DNA from: Sulfurospirillum diekertiae
GTDB taxonomy: Bacteria > Campylobacterota > Campylobacteria > Campylobacterales > Sulfurospirillaceae
Direction: 5' to 3'
Assembly (NCBI RefSeq): GCF_002309535.1
Contig: NZ_CP023275.1
Location: 186,001 to 250,000 of the forward strand
Length of the DNA: 64,000 nucleotides
Made by a program: the position numbers and the translations under genes. The notes beneath the pieces were generated by a model, which did no database searches, had not been told where the DNA came from, and saw only the letters and a program-made list of their open reading frames with translations. Positions 8,276 through 38,016 of this stretch are shown here, in pieces. Within the stretch, counting starts at the first letter, position 1. Each line of letters opens with the position of its first letter.

Positions 8276-8307
8276 GAGCGTTCTGAACCGTATGATTTTG
8301 AACGCTC
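8276..8307. terminator. Hairpin between bcp and the cytochrome-barrel gene
   Basis: GAGCGTTC (8276-8283) pairs with GAACGCTC (8300-8307) across a 16-base loop, between two converging genes. The stem is perfect but the loop is long and T-tracts are poor on both sides, so this is a moderate call. Confidence 0.4.
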
Positions 8308-8328
8308 TCATAGTAAAATAAATTTATT

Positions 8329-9666
8329 TTAGAACATAATCCATGCAGTCAAGAATACGTTATTATTGTCTTTTGCGTTTCTCCCCGCTCCATCGTAATT
8401 ATCTTTCGCTCCGTTAAATTTATCGTACATCGTATATTGCAAAGAAATTTTAACTTTTTGAATAGGCAGATAATCGAGCTCGAAAATTTTTCCAGAGCTG
8501 TCAGGTAAGCCATTACTACTTCCATAAAGCGTAGCATCAGCAGTGCCATCTGTGGTAAATGCACCAACGGTTGCGCCATATTTTTGATCATAGTAATAAC
8601 TGATTTTTCCTCTGGTTGTTGTTAGTGTATTGTTTAGATTATCACTTAAGGAGCCAAAGGAATTATTGAGTGTTGTTTTTTCTCTAATTCTTGTTGCCAT
8701 CACCGTTACCATATTGCTTCCATTGGTATAACTATATTGTGCATCGATAGCCTTGTCATCGTAGCGATCATATAAGCCTGTAGGAGCTGTAACATCCGGA
8801 TCCATTTTTGAATTGAGTGTGTATCCGCCAACCATGAAGAAATGCTCACCGATGGTTTTTTGCAATGCTACTCTTGTATAAAGTGCCGTACCATGAACCT
8901 CATTTGTATCTGAGTAGAGTGGATTATAACGAAGAATATGCAGAGGTCCACCTGATCGATTAGACTGATAACCTGCAACTTCAGCGTAAAGGAAGTCATT
9001 AAGCATAGCATACACTCCAAGTCCAGCAACTTTTTGACCTAGTCCCCCATCAATAAGAGTAGACACAGGTGAATTGACATTGGCAGATGATGAGTATGGA
9101 AATGTCCAAGTTGGGGTTGTATTGTAAATATCTTGCATACTTGGATTGTTATTCAGTGTTAATCCAACGAGTAAATCATTTTCCCCTAGTGTAAAATCTT
9201 TAACGTATCTAATGTCAACATTATCAGCGACTATATGATGTGCCACATCATTGGTGCTTTGGCTCCCTATCAAATTTGTTCCATCGTAGGTTACTTGAAT
9301 AAAAGCACCTAAATCATCAATGATTTTACCACCATAAAAGAGACTGGCTTGATCAAGAGATAGTTTTTTATCTTTAGCAGGGTCAATTTGGTCAGGGTTT
9401 GTTGTGGTATTGGCATTTTGAGTATAACTCAATTGTACCATTCCTGATAAATTGTCAAGAGGACTTGTTTTTTGATCATTGGTCATAGTATAGCCATGTA
9501 GTTTGAAATATCGTCCTGTTGGAGTTAGTTCAGGAAATACGGTATGGCATTGTGCACAATCTAAGCCCGTTTGCCTAGCAAAGCTAGGGATTGCATATGC
9601 CGAAGTCATTCCAAACGTAAGAAGAAATATGACGGTACAAACCGTTTTATGTAGTAGTTTATTCAT
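8329..9666 (-). CDS. Monohaem c-type cytochrome with predicted outer-membrane beta-barrel
   Basis: Exported protein of 445 residues. A signal peptide (about residues 1-25, ending SAYA) is followed at once by one haem c site, CAQCH (residues 37-41), in the context FPELTPTGRYFKLHGY. The rest alternates polar and hydrophobic residues, has many Gly/Asn/Tyr, and ends in Phe (TAWIMF), as outer-membrane barrels do. I place the start at 9666 because an AGGA motif lies eight bases before it. Likely an outer-membrane protein with an N-terminal periplasmic haem; the electron partner is unknown. It lies downstream of a two-component system. Confidence 0.72.
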   Translation of the reverse strand: MNKLLHKTVCTVIFLLTFGMTSAYAIPSFARQTGLDCAQCHTVFPELTPTGRYFKLHGYTMTNDQKTSPLDNLSGMVQLSYTQNANTTTNPDQIDPAKDKKLSLDQASLFYGGKIIDDLGAFIQVTYDGTNLIGSQSTNDVAHHIVADNVDIRYVKDFTLGENDLLVGLTLNNNPSMQDIYNTTPTWTFPYSSSANVNSPVSTLIDGGLGQKVAGLGVYAMLNDFLYAEVAGYQSNRSGGPLHILRYNPLYSDTNEVHGTALYTRVALQKTIGEHFFMVGGYTLNSKMDPDVTAPTGLYDRYDDKAIDAQYSYTNGSNMVTVMATRIREKTTLNNSFGSLSDNLNNTLTTTRGKISYYYDQKYGATVGAFTTDGTADATLYGSSNGLPDSSGKIFELDYLPIQKVKISLQYTMYDKFNGAKDNYDGAGRNAKDNNNVFLTAWIMF

Positions 9667-9728
9667 GAAAACCATCCTTTTGTTTTATGAAAAAATCCTA
9701 CTACAGTTGTTTCAAGTTTTCTTCAATT

Positions 9729-11066
9729 TTATGCAATTTTAAAGAATATAGTAAAAATACTTCCATTTTGAGTAGATTGAATTTTATATTTCAGAGTATG
9801 AAGGTTTAAAATCGCAATAATAAGCCTCATTCCAATGCCATTTTTAATGCCATCTTGATCATAAATTGATTTCGAAAACATTGAACTTTCAGCAGTCATG
9901 ATCACCTCCTCGCTAATACCTTCTCCTTGATCTCGTATTTGCAAGATTGCTGTTTTTGGATCAATACATTTTAGAATAAGGTGTATCTCTTTTTCTTCAG
10001 GAGTATATTTTATGGCATTATCCACAATATTAAAAATAGCTCTGTATATTAATCCTTTATCTCCAACGATAAAAATTTGATTTGAAATTTCTGATGTGAA
10101 AACTTTGTTTTGAGACTCTGCTAGATCTGTAAAAAATTGACAAAGTTCATGTGCTAATTCACTAAGATTAAAGCGGATACTTTTAGGAATAATCGTTTTA
10201 TCCTCTAGTCTTGTGAGCAACATAAGTCTGTGAATAAATTGATTTAATTTAGATATTTGTTCCAAGTCATTTGAAAATTTTTCCTTCATCACAAGAGGAA
10301 TATCTTCCCTTTCTATGGCATTTTCAATATGATTTTTGATAACAGATAGAGGTGTTTTAAGTTCATGTGACATAATGGACAAAAAATCTTTTTGATAGGT
10401 GAAATGATTTCTAAGCTTCTCGAACGTAAGATTGATGCTTTCTATTAGAAACCCAATTTCATCGTTAGATTCTTGTACCAATCCAAGAGAAAATTTTTCT
10501 TGACTTAACCTTCTGAGGGTTAAAGAAATACTCACCAATGGTTTCAGCAGAAAATTAACCAAGTAATAAAAAAGAGCTGAAATAATGATAAGGGTAATAA
10601 TAAAAATTGTGGCAAGTTTTTTCTGATTTTGTTTGATGCTGTTATCCATTGAAATGCCAAGAATAATAGTGGTACCATCGTCATAGTGTTTAACGTGTAG
10701 TCTGAATATGACATCATAGTCAGCAGTAAAATTGATCTGATTGGTTTTAACGGTGAGTGTTGTCCTATCCGCAATTTTTTCAGGAGGGATGGCAATAGAA
10801 TTGGCTATATCGCTAACGTAAAGTAGCGTATCATTTTTTGTTATTTTGAGCCAGTATTCTTCAAATAAAATGCGTTTTAAAGATGTGCTACTGTAAATAT
10901 TATTGTCTAAAAGAAATTTTATTTGCTCAGAGTCCTCAGTGAGATGTTCATCAAGCATGTTTTCTAAGTCTTTTTCATACGATGAATAAAGATAGATCGA
11001 TAAAAATAACGTTAGTAATATAGTTGATGATAAATAAAAAAAAGATATTTTTGAACTAATTTTCAA
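9729..11066 (-). CDS. Sensor histidine kinase
   Basis: Membrane sensor of 445 residues: transmembrane helix 1 (about 8-28), a periplasmic domain of about 120 residues, helix 2 (about 151-172), a HAMP-like linker, the phospho-acceptor H234 in MSHELKTPLSVIKNH, and an HATPase domain with IVDNAIKYT (N box), DQGEGI and NGIGMRL. It starts with TTG overlapping the response-regulator stop (TTGA), so its translation depends on the upstream gene. The signal is unknown; the neighbouring envelope genes suggest an outer-membrane or respiratory cue. Confidence 0.92.
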   Translation of the reverse strand: MKISSKISFFYLSSTILLTLFLSIYLYSSYEKDLENMLDEHLTEDSEQIKFLLDNNIYSSTSLKRILFEEYWLKITKNDTLLYVSDIANSIAIPPEKIADRTTLTVKTNQINFTADYDVIFRLHVKHYDDGTTIILGISMDNSIKQNQKKLATIFIITLIIISALFYYLVNFLLKPLVSISLTLRRLSQEKFSLGLVQESNDEIGFLIESINLTFEKLRNHFTYQKDFLSIMSHELKTPLSVIKNHIENAIEREDIPLVMKEKFSNDLEQISKLNQFIHRLMLLTRLEDKTIIPKSIRFNLSELAHELCQFFTDLAESQNKVFTSEISNQIFIVGDKGLIYRAIFNIVDNAIKYTPEEKEIHLILKCIDPKTAILQIRDQGEGISEEVIMTAESSMFSKSIYDQDGIKNGIGMRLIIAILNLHTLKYKIQSTQNGSIFTIFFKIA

Positions 11067-11725
11067 CTGTTAAGCCTAAAACCTACACCACGGATTGTCT
11101 CTATGATAGTTTGATTTTGAAGTTTGGTGCGAATGTTTTTGATATGCATATTAATAATATGAGAAGATTTGTCAAAATAATCAGTGTAGATATGTTCAGC
11201 AATTTGTGTTGGCGTGAGTATACTATTTTTGTTGTAGAAAAAAAGTTCAAGTATGGAAAATTCTTTAGGGGTGAGATTTATTTCAGTATCGTCCTTTAAA
11301 ACTTTTCTTTCAGCTATGTTGATTTCGATATTGTTAATGTGCAGTTTGATTTGCTTATTGGTTGAGCTTCTTCGTAATATGGCTCTAATTCTTGCTTTTA
11401 GCTCTACCATAGAAAAAGGTTTTGCAAGATAATCATCTGCTCCAGCATCTAATCCTATGACCTTGTCTTCAAGTTCATATTTAGCGGTAAGAATAAGTAC
11501 GTGCACAGATGGAACTTTTCCCTTTCGGATTTTTTCTAAAATATCAATCCCATCCATATCGGGTAAATTTAAATCTAACAATACAAGATCAAATACATCT
11601 TCCGTATATTTTTGCAATGCCATTTTGCCAGTTTGCGCTGTTACAACTGTGAAGCAATCCTGTTTTAAACTGTCTGCTAAATTTTTTAGAAGCTCAATAT
11701 CATCCTCTATTATTAAGATTTTCAT
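11063..11725 (-). CDS. OmpR-family response regulator
   Basis: Transcription factor of 220 residues. The receiver domain has the acidic pair in LIIEDD, the phosphorylation site D51 in LVLLDLNLPDMDG, and the conserved lysine K102 in DDYLAKPF. The C-terminal winged helix has LTPKEFSILELFFYNKN and ETIRGVGFRL. Partner of the histidine kinase immediately downstream, with a four-base overlap. Only two bases separate it from the end of the DUF748 gene, so the DUF748, regulator and kinase genes form one transcription unit, possibly with the cytochrome-barrel gene 62 bases beyond. Confidence 0.95.
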   Translation of the reverse strand: MKILIIEDDIELLKNLADSLKQDCFTVVTAQTGKMALQKYTEDVFDLVLLDLNLPDMDGIDILEKIRKGKVPSVHVLILTAKYELEDKVIGLDAGADDYLAKPFSMVELKARIRAILRRSSTNKQIKLHINNIEINIAERKVLKDDTEINLTPKEFSILELFFYNKNSILTPTQIAEHIYTDYFDKSSHIINMHIKNIRTKLQNQTIIETIRGVGFRLNS

Positions 11726-29384: not shown

Positions 29385-30108
29385 TCTTATCATCCAAGAA
29401 GGAGCGCTTTTTATTGCTGACGCTCATGACTCAGCTGAGCGCTCTTTCTTTTTTGATTTCCTTTTACATGTAAAACAAAATCCTCCACCCCAACTCTTTT
29501 TAATGGGCGATATGTTCGACCTTTTAGTGGGTAGTGTTGACTATGGTGTTAAACAGTATCAGCGCTATATTGACCTGATTGACGAGATTGGAAAATGCTG
29601 TGAAGTCTACTATTTTGAGGGCAATCATGACTTTGATCTCTCTAAACTCTTTCACTATGTAAAGGTGATACCGATTGCTGAACAACCTTTTACATGTAAA
29701 CTTCCTAGTGGCAAAAGCTGTCTTTTATTGCACGGCGATAAATATGGAGGCTTTATTCATCGGTGCTATACAAAGATGATTCGCAATCAAGGTGTCTTAA
29801 GCGTCCTGAATGTATTAGATGGATTACTTCAAGGTTTTATCTCTCAAAAGATTCAAAATAACCAGCGCAAAAAAATGTTGTGCAAGCCAATTGAGCATTT
29901 TGCAACGCTTATACAACGCAAGCTACATTTTTATCCAAAAGTGGATGTCATTGCAGAGGGACATTACCATCAAAACACTGATTTTATGGTAGTTGGGACA
30001 CATTATATCAATTTTTCTTCTTTTGCGTGCAATCAAAGCTATTTTAGTGTACAATCTTCGCCAGAGACAGAATTTGCGCAAAAGCAACTAAGGGGCTGCA
30101 ATGGCTAA
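29374..30108 (+). CDS. UDP-2,3-diacylglucosamine pyrophosphatase-like metallophosphoesterase
   Basis: Calcineurin-like phosphoesterase resembling LpxH, which cleaves UDP-2,3-diacylglucosamine in lipid A synthesis. All metal motifs are visible: D16-X-H18 (IADAHDS), GDMFDLL, GNHDFD, LLHGDKYG and GHYH. 244 residues from the ATG at 29374, which overlaps argC; the frame is open further upstream, but that part lies within argC. The lpxB gene is close by, supporting a lipid A role. It contains two exact palindromes 215 bases apart. Confidence 0.85.
   Translation: MSPNLIIQEGALFIADAHDSAERSFFFDFLLHVKQNPPPQLFLMGDMFDLLVGSVDYGVKQYQRYIDLIDEIGKCCEVYYFEGNHDFDLSKLFHYVKVIPIAEQPFTCKLPSGKSCLLLHGDKYGGFIHRCYTKMIRNQGVLSVLNVLDGLLQGFISQKIQNNQRKKMLCKPIEHFATLIQRKLHFYPKVDVIAEGHYHQNTDFMVVGTHYINFSSFACNQSYFSVQSSPETEFAQKQLRGCNG
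29463..29474. repeat. TTTACATGTAAA palindrome, copy 5
   Basis: Exact copy in the LpxH-like gene, read as FLLHVKQN. Confidence 0.9.
29689..29700. repeat. TTTACATGTAAA palindrome, copy 6
   Basis: Exact copy in the same LpxH-like gene, read in a different frame as PFTCKLP. Confidence 0.9.
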
Positions 30109-31051
30109 AGAAAGTATTTTAAAAGTAGGCTCCAATGAGATGGAGCTGGTGGACTTCCGTATTTTTAAGAAGGAAGCGAACGGTGTTTATGAGGGAATTT
30201 ATGGTGTTAACGTTGCAAAAGTACGTGAAATCATCAAAATTCCTAATTTGACGGAACTTCCAGGTGTTCCTGAATACATCGAAGGTATTTTTGATCTTCG
30301 TGGTATCGTTATTCCTGTTATTAACCTTGCCAAATGGATGAACATCAAAGAGCCTGATGATGGATCGATTAAACCTCGTATTATCATCACGGAGTTTAGC
30401 GACATCTTGATCGGTTTTGTGGTGCATGAAGCCAAACGTATTCGCCGCATCAGCTGGAAAGATATTGAGCCAGCATCATTTGTTGCTGGTATGGGTTCAC
30501 TGGATAAAAGTCAAATTACAGGTGTAACACGTATTGAAAATGATGAGGTACTTTTGATTTTGGATCTTGAAAGCGTGGTGCAAGCACTCGGTATTTATCA
30601 ACCTAAAATTGATGTGGAAGACAATGCTATTATCAAAGTAGATGGTACAGCCTTGATTTTGGACGATAGTATGACCGCACGAAAGCTCGTCAGCGATGCG
30701 CTTAAAAAGATGGGTATGCGTGTAATCGAAGCGAAAGATGGTTCTGAAGGTTTAGAGCGCTTAAACGATCTTTATACAACCTATGGTGAACATCTAACCG
30801 ATGAAGTCAAAATTATTATTAGCGATGTTGAAATGCCTCAGATGGATGGATTTCACTTTGCCGCTAGTGTGAAAGAAGATGCAAGGTTTAAAAATATTCC
30901 GATTGTCTTTAACTCTTCCATTAGTGACCATTTTAGTGAACTTAGGGGCAAAGAGGCGGGCGGTGAAGCCTATTTAACGAAATTTGATGCAGGTATCTTT
31001 TACAAAGAAGTTTCTAAAGTCATCAAATCACACGTGAAAACAGCACAATAG
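30101..31051 (+). CDS. cheV: Chemotaxis coupling protein CheV
   Basis: CheW-like coupling domain (about 1-170, with LPGVPEYIEGIFDLRGIVIPV split as ELPGVPEYIEG and FDLRGIVIPVINL) fused to a receiver domain (about 180-310) with acceptor D242 in IIISDVEMPQMDG. It links receptors to CheA and may buffer phosphate. 316 residues. It overlaps the preceding gene by eight bases and is followed by cheA and cheW. Confidence 0.95.
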   Translation: MAKESILKVGSNEMELVDFRIFKKEANGVYEGIYGVNVAKVREIIKIPNLTELPGVPEYIEGIFDLRGIVIPVINLAKWMNIKEPDDGSIKPRIIITEFSDILIGFVVHEAKRIRRISWKDIEPASFVAGMGSLDKSQITGVTRIENDEVLLILDLESVVQALGIYQPKIDVEDNAIIKVDGTALILDDSMTARKLVSDALKKMGMRVIEAKDGSEGLERLNDLYTTYGEHLTDEVKIIISDVEMPQMDGFHFAASVKEDARFKNIPIVFNSSISDHFSELRGKEAGGEAYLTKFDAGIFYKEVSKVIKSHVKTAQ

Positions 31052-31061
31052 GGGTAGAACG

Positions 31062-33392
31062 ATGGAAGATATTCAAGAAATTTTAGAAGATTTTTTGGTT
31101 GAAGCGTTCGAACTTATTGAACAACTTGATCAAAATTTAGTGGAACTAGAGGGCAATCCAGATGATTTGGAACTCCTCAATAGTATTTTTAGGGTCGCAC
31201 ATACGATAAAAAGGTCGTCATCCTTTTTAAATTTCGATATTTTGACTGGCTTAACCCATCACATGGAAGATGTTCTTAACAAAGCACGCCATGGTGACTT
31301 AAAACTCACACCAGAAGTTATGGATGTTGTTTTGGAATCTATTGACTTGATGAAAAGCTTGCTTCATGCCATTCGTGATAGTGGCAATGATACTTCCGCA
31401 GGTATTGACATTACAGACATTTGTCGCCGTTTAGACATTATCTCTAATGGTGATGTGGCTCCAACAGCCGTTCAAGAACTTGTAGATGAGTCCCCCGTTC
31501 CAGAGTCAGAAGAGAATGATAATACAGACTACTCAAAACTCAGCGACAAAGAAGTTGAAGACGAAATCGAACGTCTTTTGAAAATGCGTAAAGAAGAAGA
31601 TCGTAAGCGAAGAGAAAACAATGGTGCACCAAAAGCAGCAGCTGCTGTTTCGACGCCATCCTTTGAAAGCTTAAAAGATCATGACGAAGACGATGACGTA
31701 CCCAAAGTTATAGAACCAGTCGTTACAAAACGAGCCACTGCAGAAAATGCACCTGCTAAAAAAGAGTCTGCAAGTTCTATGGAGCAAACCATCAGGGTCG
31801 AGGTTAAACGACTGGATCACTTGATGAACTTAATCGGTGAACTTGTTTTGGGTAAAAATAGATTGCTCAAAATTTACGATGATGTTGAAGAACGCTATGA
31901 AGGTGAAAAATTCTTAGAAGAGTTAAATCAAGTGGTTTCATCTATTTCCCTTGTTACCACCGATCTTCAAATTGCGGTTATGAAAACAAGAATGCTTCCT
32001 ATTGCCAAAGTCTTTAACAAATTCCCACGCATGGTACGCGATCTTTCACGAGAGCTTGGAAAACAGATTGAGCTTGAAATTTCAGGTGAAGAGACTGAGC
32101 TTGATAAATCCATTGTTGAAGAGATTGGTGATCCTCTTGTTCACATTATTCGTAACTCATGTGATCATGGTATTGAAGATGGGGCGACGAGACGTGCTCA
32201 AGGTAAATCGGAGATGGGACTTATTCAGCTCAAAGCGTACAATGAGGGAAATCACATTGTTATTGAAATTACCGATGATGGTAAAGGGCTTGATCCTGAT
32301 TTACTTCGCACAAAAGCGATTGAAAAAGGCATGATTACTGAACGTGAAGCTGATGCAATGAGTGATAAAGAAGCGTATGCGTTGGTCTTTAGACCATCCT
32401 TCTCAACCGCTAAAGTTGTCACCAATGTTTCAGGTCGTGGTGTTGGTATGGATGTTGTTAAAACGAATATTGAAAAACTCAACGGTATCATTGATGTCGA
32501 TAGTGAAATCGGTCATGGTACGGTTATAAAACTTAAAATTCCTCTAACGTTAGCGATCATTCAAGCCTTGTTAGTCGGTGCTCAAGAAGAGTACTACGCC
32601 ATTCCATTAGCATCGGTTTTAGAGACGGTTCGTATTCCTTTGGATGAGATTTATACGATTGAAGGTAAAAATGTTCTCAGACTTCGTGATGAAGTTCTTT
32701 CACTTGTCCGTCTTTCCGACATCTTTGGTGTCAAACAGGTGTATGAAGGTGGCGAGCATACGTATGTCGTTGTCATCGGACTTGCTGAGTCAAAACTAGG
32801 TGTTGTTGTAGACACGTTGGTCGGTCAGGAAGAGATTGTTATTAAATCTCTTGGTGATTACCTCTAAGGCATTGAAGGCATTGCCGGTGCAACTATTAGA
32901 GGCGATGGACGCGTAACACTCATTGTGGATGTTGCAGCTCTTATGAATCTTGCAAAAGGCATCACCGTTGATATTCGTGCGAGTGCAGAAGCGGTGGTTA
33001 AAACAAAAACAGTTCCAAGTGACTACATTGTCTTAGCGGTTGATGATAGTGCCATGGATCGTAATATCATGAAAAAATCGATGGAACCCATTGGCGTTAA
33101 AGTCCTTGAAGCCAGCAATGGTCAAGAAGCACTCAATATGCTCAAATCGGCTGAATACAGCATTGATGCGGTCTTAATTGATATTGAAATGCCACGTATG
33201 GATGGATATACCCTTGCGGGTGAAATTCGTAAATACTCGAAGTATAAAAACCTTCCATTGATTGCGGTAACATCACGTACATCAAAAGCTGATAGGCTAA
33301 GAGGCGTTGAATCAGGCATGAGTGAATACATCACCAAACCATACTCTCCCGAATACCTCGAGAGTGTCGTGCGAAAAAATATAAAACTATAA
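31062..33392 (+). pseudogene. cheA: Chemotaxis histidine kinase CheA-CheY fusion, interrupted by an in-frame stop
   Basis: Reading one frame through, this is a 776-residue CheA with an Hpt domain (H47 in VAHTIKR), dimerisation and HATPase domains (HIIRNSCDHGIED, TDDGKGLD, GRGVGMDVVK), a CheW-like domain and a C-terminal receiver (VLAVDDSAMDR, IDIEMPRMDG), as usual in Campylobacterota. Codon 602 (32865-32867) is TAA within the CheW-like domain, after LGDYL and before GIEGIAGATIRG. The frame on both sides is otherwise intact. Residue 51, beside the phospho-histidine, is Arg where the family has Gly. A truncated kinase may be made; the receiver could start at GTG 32925. Confidence 0.9.
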
Positions 33393-33405: not shown

Positions 33406-33900
33406 ATGAACGATAAACTAAATCAAATTCTTCAAAAACAGCAACAACAAGTTGATGAGCCACACAAAAAAGAGGATGATATTATTCAATTGGTTGGATT
33501 CATTATAGGTCAAGAAGAGTATGCCGTGCCAATTTTGAGTATTCAAGAGATTATCAAACCGATCGAATATACCAGAGTACCTAGTGTACCGACGTATATT
33601 TTGGGTGTTTTTAATCTAAGAGGGAGTGTTATTCCTTTGATTGATCTAAGAAGCAAGTTTAAGATGGATCCTTCAAAAGTAACTGAAGATACACGCTACA
33701 TAGTCATGAAAGGTTCAGATAACACTGCAGGCTTCGTGATTGATCGTTTGACCGAAGCGATTCGTATTAAAAGTAGCCGCATTGGACCACCACCTGAAAC
33801 GATTCACGCGGAAAAAGGGATGGTTTATGGAATTGGTATGAGAGATGAGAATATCTTAACCATTCTAAAAGTAGAGCAACTTTTAAAAAGAGATTTTTAA
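33406..33900 (+). CDS. cheW: Chemotaxis coupling protein CheW
   Basis: Scaffold that couples chemoreceptors to CheA. A charged, Gln-rich N-terminal tail (about 30 residues) precedes a single CheW domain with EEYAVPILSIQEIIKP, RVPSVPTYILGVFNLRGSVIPL (spaced as VPSVPTYILG and FNLRGSVIPLIDL) and GIGMRDENILTILKVE. 164 residues. Thirteen bases after cheA and followed by a strong hairpin, so it ends the cheV-cheA-cheW operon. Confidence 0.95.
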   Translation: MNDKLNQILQKQQQQVDEPHKKEDDIIQLVGFIIGQEEYAVPILSIQEIIKPIEYTRVPSVPTYILGVFNLRGSVIPLIDLRSKFKMDPSKVTEDTRYIVMKGSDNTAGFVIDRLTEAIRIKSSRIGPPPETIHAEKGMVYGIGMRDENILTILKVEQLLKRDF

Positions 33901-36074: not shown

Positions 36075-36612
36075 AAGAGTGAACTAATGTATAAGAATGA
36101 TATTAAATTTTCATTATGGTGTGATTTTGTTGAGCGAAGTTTTTTAGAGGGTGAATTTGGTGATTTGATTGAGAAAAAGATTGTTAATGCGGCCACCAGT
36201 AATCCTTCAATTTTTAAGTCTGCTTTTTTAGGCTCACCTGCGTATGCGGAGGATAAGGCAAAGCTTCATGGCAAATCTGCTAAAGAGATGTATGAAGCAC
36301 TAGCGATTGGAGATATTCAACGTGCAGCTAAAAAGCTCTTGCCTCTTTATGAAAAAGATGATGATGGTTTTATCAGCATTGAGGTTGATCCTTTCTTATG
36401 TGATGATGCAGAAGCAACCATTGAAGAGGGAAAACGTCTTTTTAAAGCCATTGGATATCCGAATGTTATGATCAAAGTTCCCGCAACAGAAGAGGGTTTT
36501 ATTGCGATGGAAGTACTCTTAAGCGAAGGGATTAACGTCAATGCAACATTGATTTTTTCTGACATCCAGACGAAATATTGTCTAGAGGCATTTACGCGTG
36601 CGAATGAAACTT

Positions 36613-36617
36613 TAGTA
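36613..36617. repeat. Target duplication, left copy
   Basis: TAGTA directly before the left end of the insertion sequence; the same five bases follow its right end at 37532-37536. Because the outermost base pair is ambiguous, the duplication could also be counted as AGT (three bases). Confidence 0.8.
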
Positions 36618-36632
36618 GACATCTTGCAAAAC

Positions 36633-37097
36633 TCATTTGTATTCCACAGCAAAACCACGGTCAAAGTTGATTAATCCACATATCAAATTAAAGCGTAGAT
36701 TGAATCGTTTTCTTCTGTTTCTGTATTTTTGGGTGAGTATCTGAAATGTTTTGATTTTAGCATTCACATGTTCAACACATATTCTAGCACTTGCTTTTTG
36801 TCTGTTTTCCTCTTTTTGCTCCTCACTCAAAGGATGAAGTTTGGAGGCTTTATGGGGAATTTGACAATGGCTATGTTCTTTGGCAATACCCAGATATCCC
36901 AAATCAACATAAACACAGGTCTTGGGCATCAAGGGGAGATTAGATTCTTGAAACAGTCTAAAATCATGTGTCGTACCTTTAGCGGTATGCACACACATAA
37001 TCCTCTCCTCTTTATCAATCACAATCTGTCCTTTAAGGGTATGACGCTTTTGCTTACCTGAGTAGTACTCTCTTTGCTTTTTTTGGGTCTTTGACAA
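36633..37097 (-). CDS. IS5-family transposase, second frame (OrfB)
   Basis: C-terminal half of the transposase catalytic domain (DDE_Tnp_4-like). It carries the second catalytic aspartate in CVYVDLGYLG and the glutamate in ICVEHVNAKIK. The frame opens at a TTG within the OrfA coding region, so it is almost certainly made only as a fusion with OrfA by -1 slippage at the run of seven A (37078-37084, read on the minus strand). Confidence 0.88.
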   Translation of the reverse strand: MSKTQKKQREYYSGKQKRHTLKGQIVIDKEERIMCVHTAKGTTHDFRLFQESNLPLMPKTCVYVDLGYLGIAKEHSHCQIPHKASKLHPLSEEQKEENRQKASARICVEHVNAKIKTFQILTQKYRNRRKRFNLRFNLICGLINFDRGFAVEYK

Positions 37098-37480
37098 GGC
37101 GTTTCTGTCGCATCAATGACAACAAAAGAGAGGGCAACATCACTTTTATAGAGTTCTCTCTTGCTTGGCAATGAAAATCTACCAGACTTAATCAACACTT
37201 CTTCTACTTCACATACAATCCTTGAAGCCGTTGATTCACTCACACCATAATCAAATCCAATATGTTCAAGGGTGCGATACTCACGATAATAGCCAAGCAT
37301 CAAAAGTACTTTATTTTCTGGTGAAAGAGATCTCCTCCCTCCTACACCTAATCCTTTTTTACGATTCTCATCGTATTGCCTAAACACCTCTATCATTGCG
37401 TTAAATGTCTCTTCATTAACGCCAATATGGCGCTTAAAATCTTTGGGTTTATGCTTTTGCATTTGTTCATATTTTTTCAT
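37019..37480 (-). CDS. IS5-family transposase, first frame (OrfA)
   Basis: N-terminal helix-turn-helix part (HTH_Tnp_4-like, with SESTASRIVCEVEEVL) and the first catalytic aspartate in VVIDATETPCQRP. I chose the ATG at 37480 (MKKYEQMQ), preceded by AAGAGG, rather than the TTG at 37492. Without frameshifting it ends 20 residues after the slippery site, in SVIPLKDRL, a sequence that does not resemble transposase. Confidence 0.88.
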   Translation of the reverse strand: MKKYEQMQKHKPKDFKRHIGVNEETFNAMIEVFRQYDENRKKGLGVGGRRSLSPENKVLLMLGYYREYRTLEHIGFDYGVSESTASRIVCEVEEVLIKSGRFSLPSKRELYKSDVALSFVVIDATETPCQRPKKSKESTTQVSKSVIPLKDRL

Positions 37481-37531
37481 GCCTCTTGCCAAGCATTTTT
37501 AGTGCCTTTTATTTGAGTTTTGCAAGATGTC

Positions 37532-37536
37532 TAGTA
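37532..37536. repeat. Target duplication, right copy
   Basis: TAGTA directly after the right inverted repeat; partner of 36613-36617. Confidence 0.8.
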
Positions 37537-38016
37537 AAAAAAGGGACTAAAAAACTTCCTCAAGCGGTGATTAGTATCTTTGTGAGTCGATTTGATCGCA
37601 AACTGGATGAACACTTCAAAAAAATTGATTTTGTTCTTTCACGCGTGGGGATTATGAACGCAATGAGAGCATATGAGCTTATTCAAAATGCACAGTTGCC
37701 AAATGTAAGAGCATTGTTTGCTAGCACCGGTGTTAAAGGTGATGAATTAAGCCCTGATTATTATATTCGCGAATTATTGCTTCCAAATTCGATTAATACA
37801 GCACCATTAGGAACGATTAAAGCTTTTATTGGCTCTTCTAAAGAGTGTGAATCTATTGAATTACGTTCTGATTGGATTGAAAACTTTTTTCACTCACTTG
37901 CAGCAAATGGCGTTGATATGAATGCCGTATGCGATGAGTTAATGGATGAAGGGTTAAGTGCCTTTAAAGATGCTTTTGTGGAGATTTTAGACGAACTAAA
38001 ATAGCAAGGAAATCCG

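Follow-up and report, generated by a model that had tools for sequence, protein, structure and literature searches.

Two strain-specific lesions in the main-operon cheA of a Sulfurospirillum strain point to recent loss of its chemotaxis kinase

The window analysed here, a stretch of 64,000 nucleotides from a genome assigned to Sulfurospirillum diekertiae, contains the main chemotaxis operon, in the order cheV-cheA-cheW, and its cheA frame is interrupted by a stop codon. This raises the question of whether the strain has lost its main chemotaxis kinase, or whether the stop is an error of the assembly, is bypassed, or leaves a product that still works. The features concerned are the following.

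30101..31051, + strand: cheV (CheW-like domain and receiver; Pfam PF01584 and PF00072), intact, 316 aa, no private residues.
31062..33392, + strand: cheA, a CheA with a C-terminal receiver ("CheAY"), interrupted in translation by a single in-frame stop; stop-free in 23 other Sulfurospirillum genomes.
31212..31214, + strand: codon 51 of cheA, AGG (Arg) for GGG (Gly), hence G51R, at position H+4 of the Hpt motif AHTIKG; private, with Gly in 101 of 101 relatives.
32865..32867, + strand: premature TAA at codon 602, derived from CAA (Gln) according to translation and the codons of relatives.
32868..33392, + strand: rest of cheA after the stop, comprising the end of the P5/CheW-like domain and the receiver, delimited by Pfam on the intact same-species orthologue; weak restarts are possible (GTG 32925, ATG 32943).
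33406..33900, + strand: cheW (PF01584), intact, no private residues.

Translation and genome search bear out the sequence-only reading that the TAA at codon 602 is the sole in-frame stop of cheA. That reading also proposed a single base change from an ancestral lysine codon, AAA, and advised a comparison with other isolates. The comparison confirms the stop as specific to this genome and refutes the ancestral codon: all 23 other Sulfurospirillum genomes of the genus search, the conspecific G004 among them, encode Gln (CAA or CAG) at codon 602, none has TAA there or a stop elsewhere in the orthologue, and lysine AAA occurs in more distant relatives only. When polarised with the outgroup G011, the change is a C-to-T transition on the strain's own branch. 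Orthologues are thus intact elsewhere and the TAA is present here alone, the pattern of a pseudogene with a disrupted frame. It is the sole private nonsense change in the shared coding sequence of the window, in which the own branch carries 323 synonymous changes, 81 missense changes and 1 stop, versus 299, 108 and 0 on the G004 branch. Past the stop there is only one private synonymous change, and no decay is visible beyond the two lesions of the gene, which counts against the pseudogene reading.

The strain can be identified with near certainty as Sulfurospirillum sp. JPD-1 (DSM 16452), judging from the six copies of an insertion sequence (IS), their orientations, which follow the JPD-1 locus-tag order, and the location of one copy in a gene for a response regulator next to one for a histidine kinase. 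The six copies of this two-gene IS (914 bases) are identical, and the one that splits the response-regulator gene adjoining the histidine kinase does so as published for JPD-1. JPD-1 has been reported to lack PCE respiration, a loss that possibly occurred during strain conservation (PMC7755780), and the response-regulator insertion accompanies this published loss. Within the window, a 914-base two-gene DDE IS (36618-37531) splits a transaldolase gene (36087-38004) that is unbroken in both G004 and G011. No other TAL_FSA gene turned up in this genome, and the disruption may affect the strain's pentose phosphate pathway. A stretch of about 3 kb (window 8307-11309) is unmatched in the compared G004 stretch and represents a strain-specific insertion or replacement. 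It holds two ORFs, one of 448 aa (8329-9675) and one resembling a sensor kinase (9729-11066). Beyond the window, at C1:2794979-2795051, lies a second gene for tRNA-Thr (tgt) that scores the same as the copy at 401008, with no matching extra copy listed for G004.

JPD-1 was sequenced by PacBio RSII at 169-fold and assembled with HGAP (PMC7755780), and an assembly made from these data only could in principle carry a consensus or sequencing error at codon 602, leaving cheA intact in the cell. Two genes that are probably important show one-base deletions with respect to G004 that resemble assembly errors, a plsY-like gene (C1:257236, in a C run) and a nuoL-like gene (C1:440188, in a G run), located 7 kb and 190 kb past the window; both deletions are probably errors of this PacBio-only genome. 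However, both of these suspected errors are indels within stretches of repeated C or G, whereas the cheA change replaces one base and lies in no long run. Moreover, the own branch shows no excess of substitutions (414 versus 415 on the G004 branch), its C>T and G>A counts are similar, and its third-position bias is strong and no weaker than that of the G004 branch. A systematic C>T or methylation-motif error, considered for the ancestral site CCAAGG, was rejected, given own-branch C>T and G>A counts equal to those of the G004 branch and only 3 own-branch changes in CCWWGG. A further 200 kb outside the window yielded one other substitution nonsense, the two one-base deletions in C/G runs and a few other differences. 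Nonsense changes are therefore rare but not unique in this genome, and with a single other case in this sample a general excess of broken genes was rejected. The other case is a GAG-to-TAG change (E405*, C1:444812-444814) in a gene for a 670-aa PAS/GGDEF-like protein (domains assigned by eye), and it is the sole difference from G004 across 2013 bases. Altogether, an error at codon 602 appears highly improbable.

A second change in cheA, missed by the sequence-only reading, bears on the same point. The glycine at position 51, kept by all the relatives compared, G004 included, lies four residues past the phosphorylated His47 and aligns with the motif HSIKG of a full-length CheA in the PDB (6s1k). 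Out of 776 positions, CheA carries a residue private with respect to relatives at 51 and 602 only, and nine genes nearby, including cheV and cheW, have 0 or 1 private residue each, the one being at a variable site. That two damaging private changes fall in cheA and nearly none in the genes around it suggests a specific release of cheA from constraint. As an independent sign of a dead gene, G51R also argues against a sequencing error at codon 602, since it would need to be an error as well. A study of this residue in HPt domains (PMC6341664) describes how phospho-acceptance by Ypd1 is nearly abolished when a large or charged residue replaces the H+4 glycine, counts Arg at H+4 in 3 out of about 10,000 HPt sequences, and mentions reported harm to chemotaxis from substitution of CheA G52, the matching glycine. 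G51 is equivalent to the glycine mutated in Ypd1 (G68X), ArcB (G721) and CheA (G52) in that study, but the present change is natural and to Arg, whereas the substitutions reported in the text consulted are to S, A, Q, V, L and E.

The consequences of the stop for the protein were delimited with Pfam matches on the intact same-species orthologue and on the 601-aa truncated product. The intact CheA has Hpt at 6-99, dimerisation at 241-309, ATPase at 357-496, CheW-like at 501-630 and receiver at 657-770. In the truncated product, the Hpt match at 6-99 is present with His47, the glycine of its HxxKG motif being Arg51, and the dimerisation (PF02895, 241-309) and HATPase (PF02518, 357-496) matches are unaffected. 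The CheW-like match is complete in the orthologue and here covers 501-599, reaching profile position 101 of 138, and solved CheA structures align across the P5 region as far as query residue 627-630. The receiver lies wholly beyond the stop, so that the product lacks the C-terminal receiver that defines a CheAY. The claim that half of the CheW-like domain and the receiver are lost thus holds for the receiver, but for the CheW-like domain it was too strong, 29 of 130 residues (about a quarter) being removed. With Hpt, dimerisation and ATPase domains still recognised by Pfam, the cell could still make P1-P4 and most of P5 as an uncoupled or altered kinase, with taxis modified and not lost. Against this, G51R alters the phosphotransfer motif, at a site where bulky side chains prevent transfer in a homologue, and the end of P5 is missing, without which the domain probably misfolds. 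We regard a modified taxis of this kind as improbable.

The frame past the stop is open and nearly unchanged, as would be expected if the stop were read through or recoded, or if the receiver were made separately by re-initiation. For the latter, the GTG at 32925 proposed earlier is indeed present, but it is not the only candidate, an in-frame ATG (32943) occurring 75 bases beyond the stop; by eye, neither has a convincing ribosome-binding site. The stop at codon 602 is absent from every relative, although a stop maintained for read-through should be conserved, and TAA closes other genes of the window, for example at cheA's own end. Ochre suppression was also considered and rejected: none of the 47 tRNA genes found in the genome has a UUA anticodon. 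The lack of an ochre-suppressor tRNA and of an own-branch substitution excess make read-through and random sequence error both unlikely, and a bypass of the stop by read-through, recoding or re-initiation seems to us barely credible.

No stops were found in the genes for CheW, CheV, CheB, the second CheA cluster, 38 chemoreceptor (MCP) domains, flagellin, FlhA and FliM/N, and a breakdown of the whole motility system was therefore rejected. Because the rest of the sampled chemotaxis and flagellar genes are intact, the loss of cheA looks recent.

We therefore conclude with good confidence that the main-operon cheA is a recent pseudogene, that its two lesions arose independently once the lineage had split from G004, the nearest sequenced relative, that steering by this pathway is probably lost, and that the likeliest cause is relaxed selection, probably in culture. 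The proposal that a one-base nonsense mutation truncates CheA, with chemotaxis lost or altered, is hence retained as the best reading, its effect on chemotaxis being what we infer from the damage to the protein. The change from CAA to TAA removes the end of the P5 domain, which couples to receptors and CheW, and the whole receiver; the truncated P5 would no longer couple the kinase to receptors and CheW. By analogy with the homologue work, G51R would block the passage of phosphate from the phospho-histidine to response regulators. Flagellar and receptor genes being retained, cells would swim without steering through the main CheA pathway, and relaxed selection, probably in laboratory culture, may have let both lesions persist. 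Part of the lost function might be taken over by a second CheA system. It is also conceivable, although rather unlikely, that the loss of CheA was selected in culture and not just tolerated, one lesion stopping phosphotransfer and another truncating the protein, perhaps because a kinase left uncoupled, or with some of its activity, did harm. If so, the gene would be a natural two-step record of the shutdown of a chemotaxis pathway.

In kind, this is most likely an ordinary strain-specific gene loss, with a probably complete inactivation of the main chemotaxis kinase, and not a new mechanism. The intact orthologue shares with the CheAY of Campylobacter and Helicobacter the order Hpt, dimerisation, HATPase, CheW-like and receiver, and intact-type CheA is about 65-73% identical to the orthologues of these genera; in contrast, a stop interrupts P5 in the copy described here, and the otherwise invariant glycine of its Hpt domain is replaced by Arg. 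The case resembles that of the IS-hit TCS2 response regulator of JPD-1 and S. multivorans N (PMC7755780), in which a strain maintained in culture lost a signalling gene while close relatives kept it intact. However, cheA was hit by point mutations and not by IS insertion. The published analysis of JPD-1 (PMC7755780) does not use the term "cheA" in its main text, and the two published accounts of these strains do not mention motility and hardly mention chemotaxis. For laboratory-selected cheA nonsense mutants, a literature search revealed no close parallel in the titles and abstracts it listed.

For those who use JPD-1 (DSM 16452) in work on physiology, chemotaxis or biofilms, the main CheA of the strain is very probably dead. 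This is a further sign of functional differences between the sequenced JPD-1 stock and its relatives, and G51R provides a natural experiment on the H+4 glycine in the Hpt domain of a CheA.
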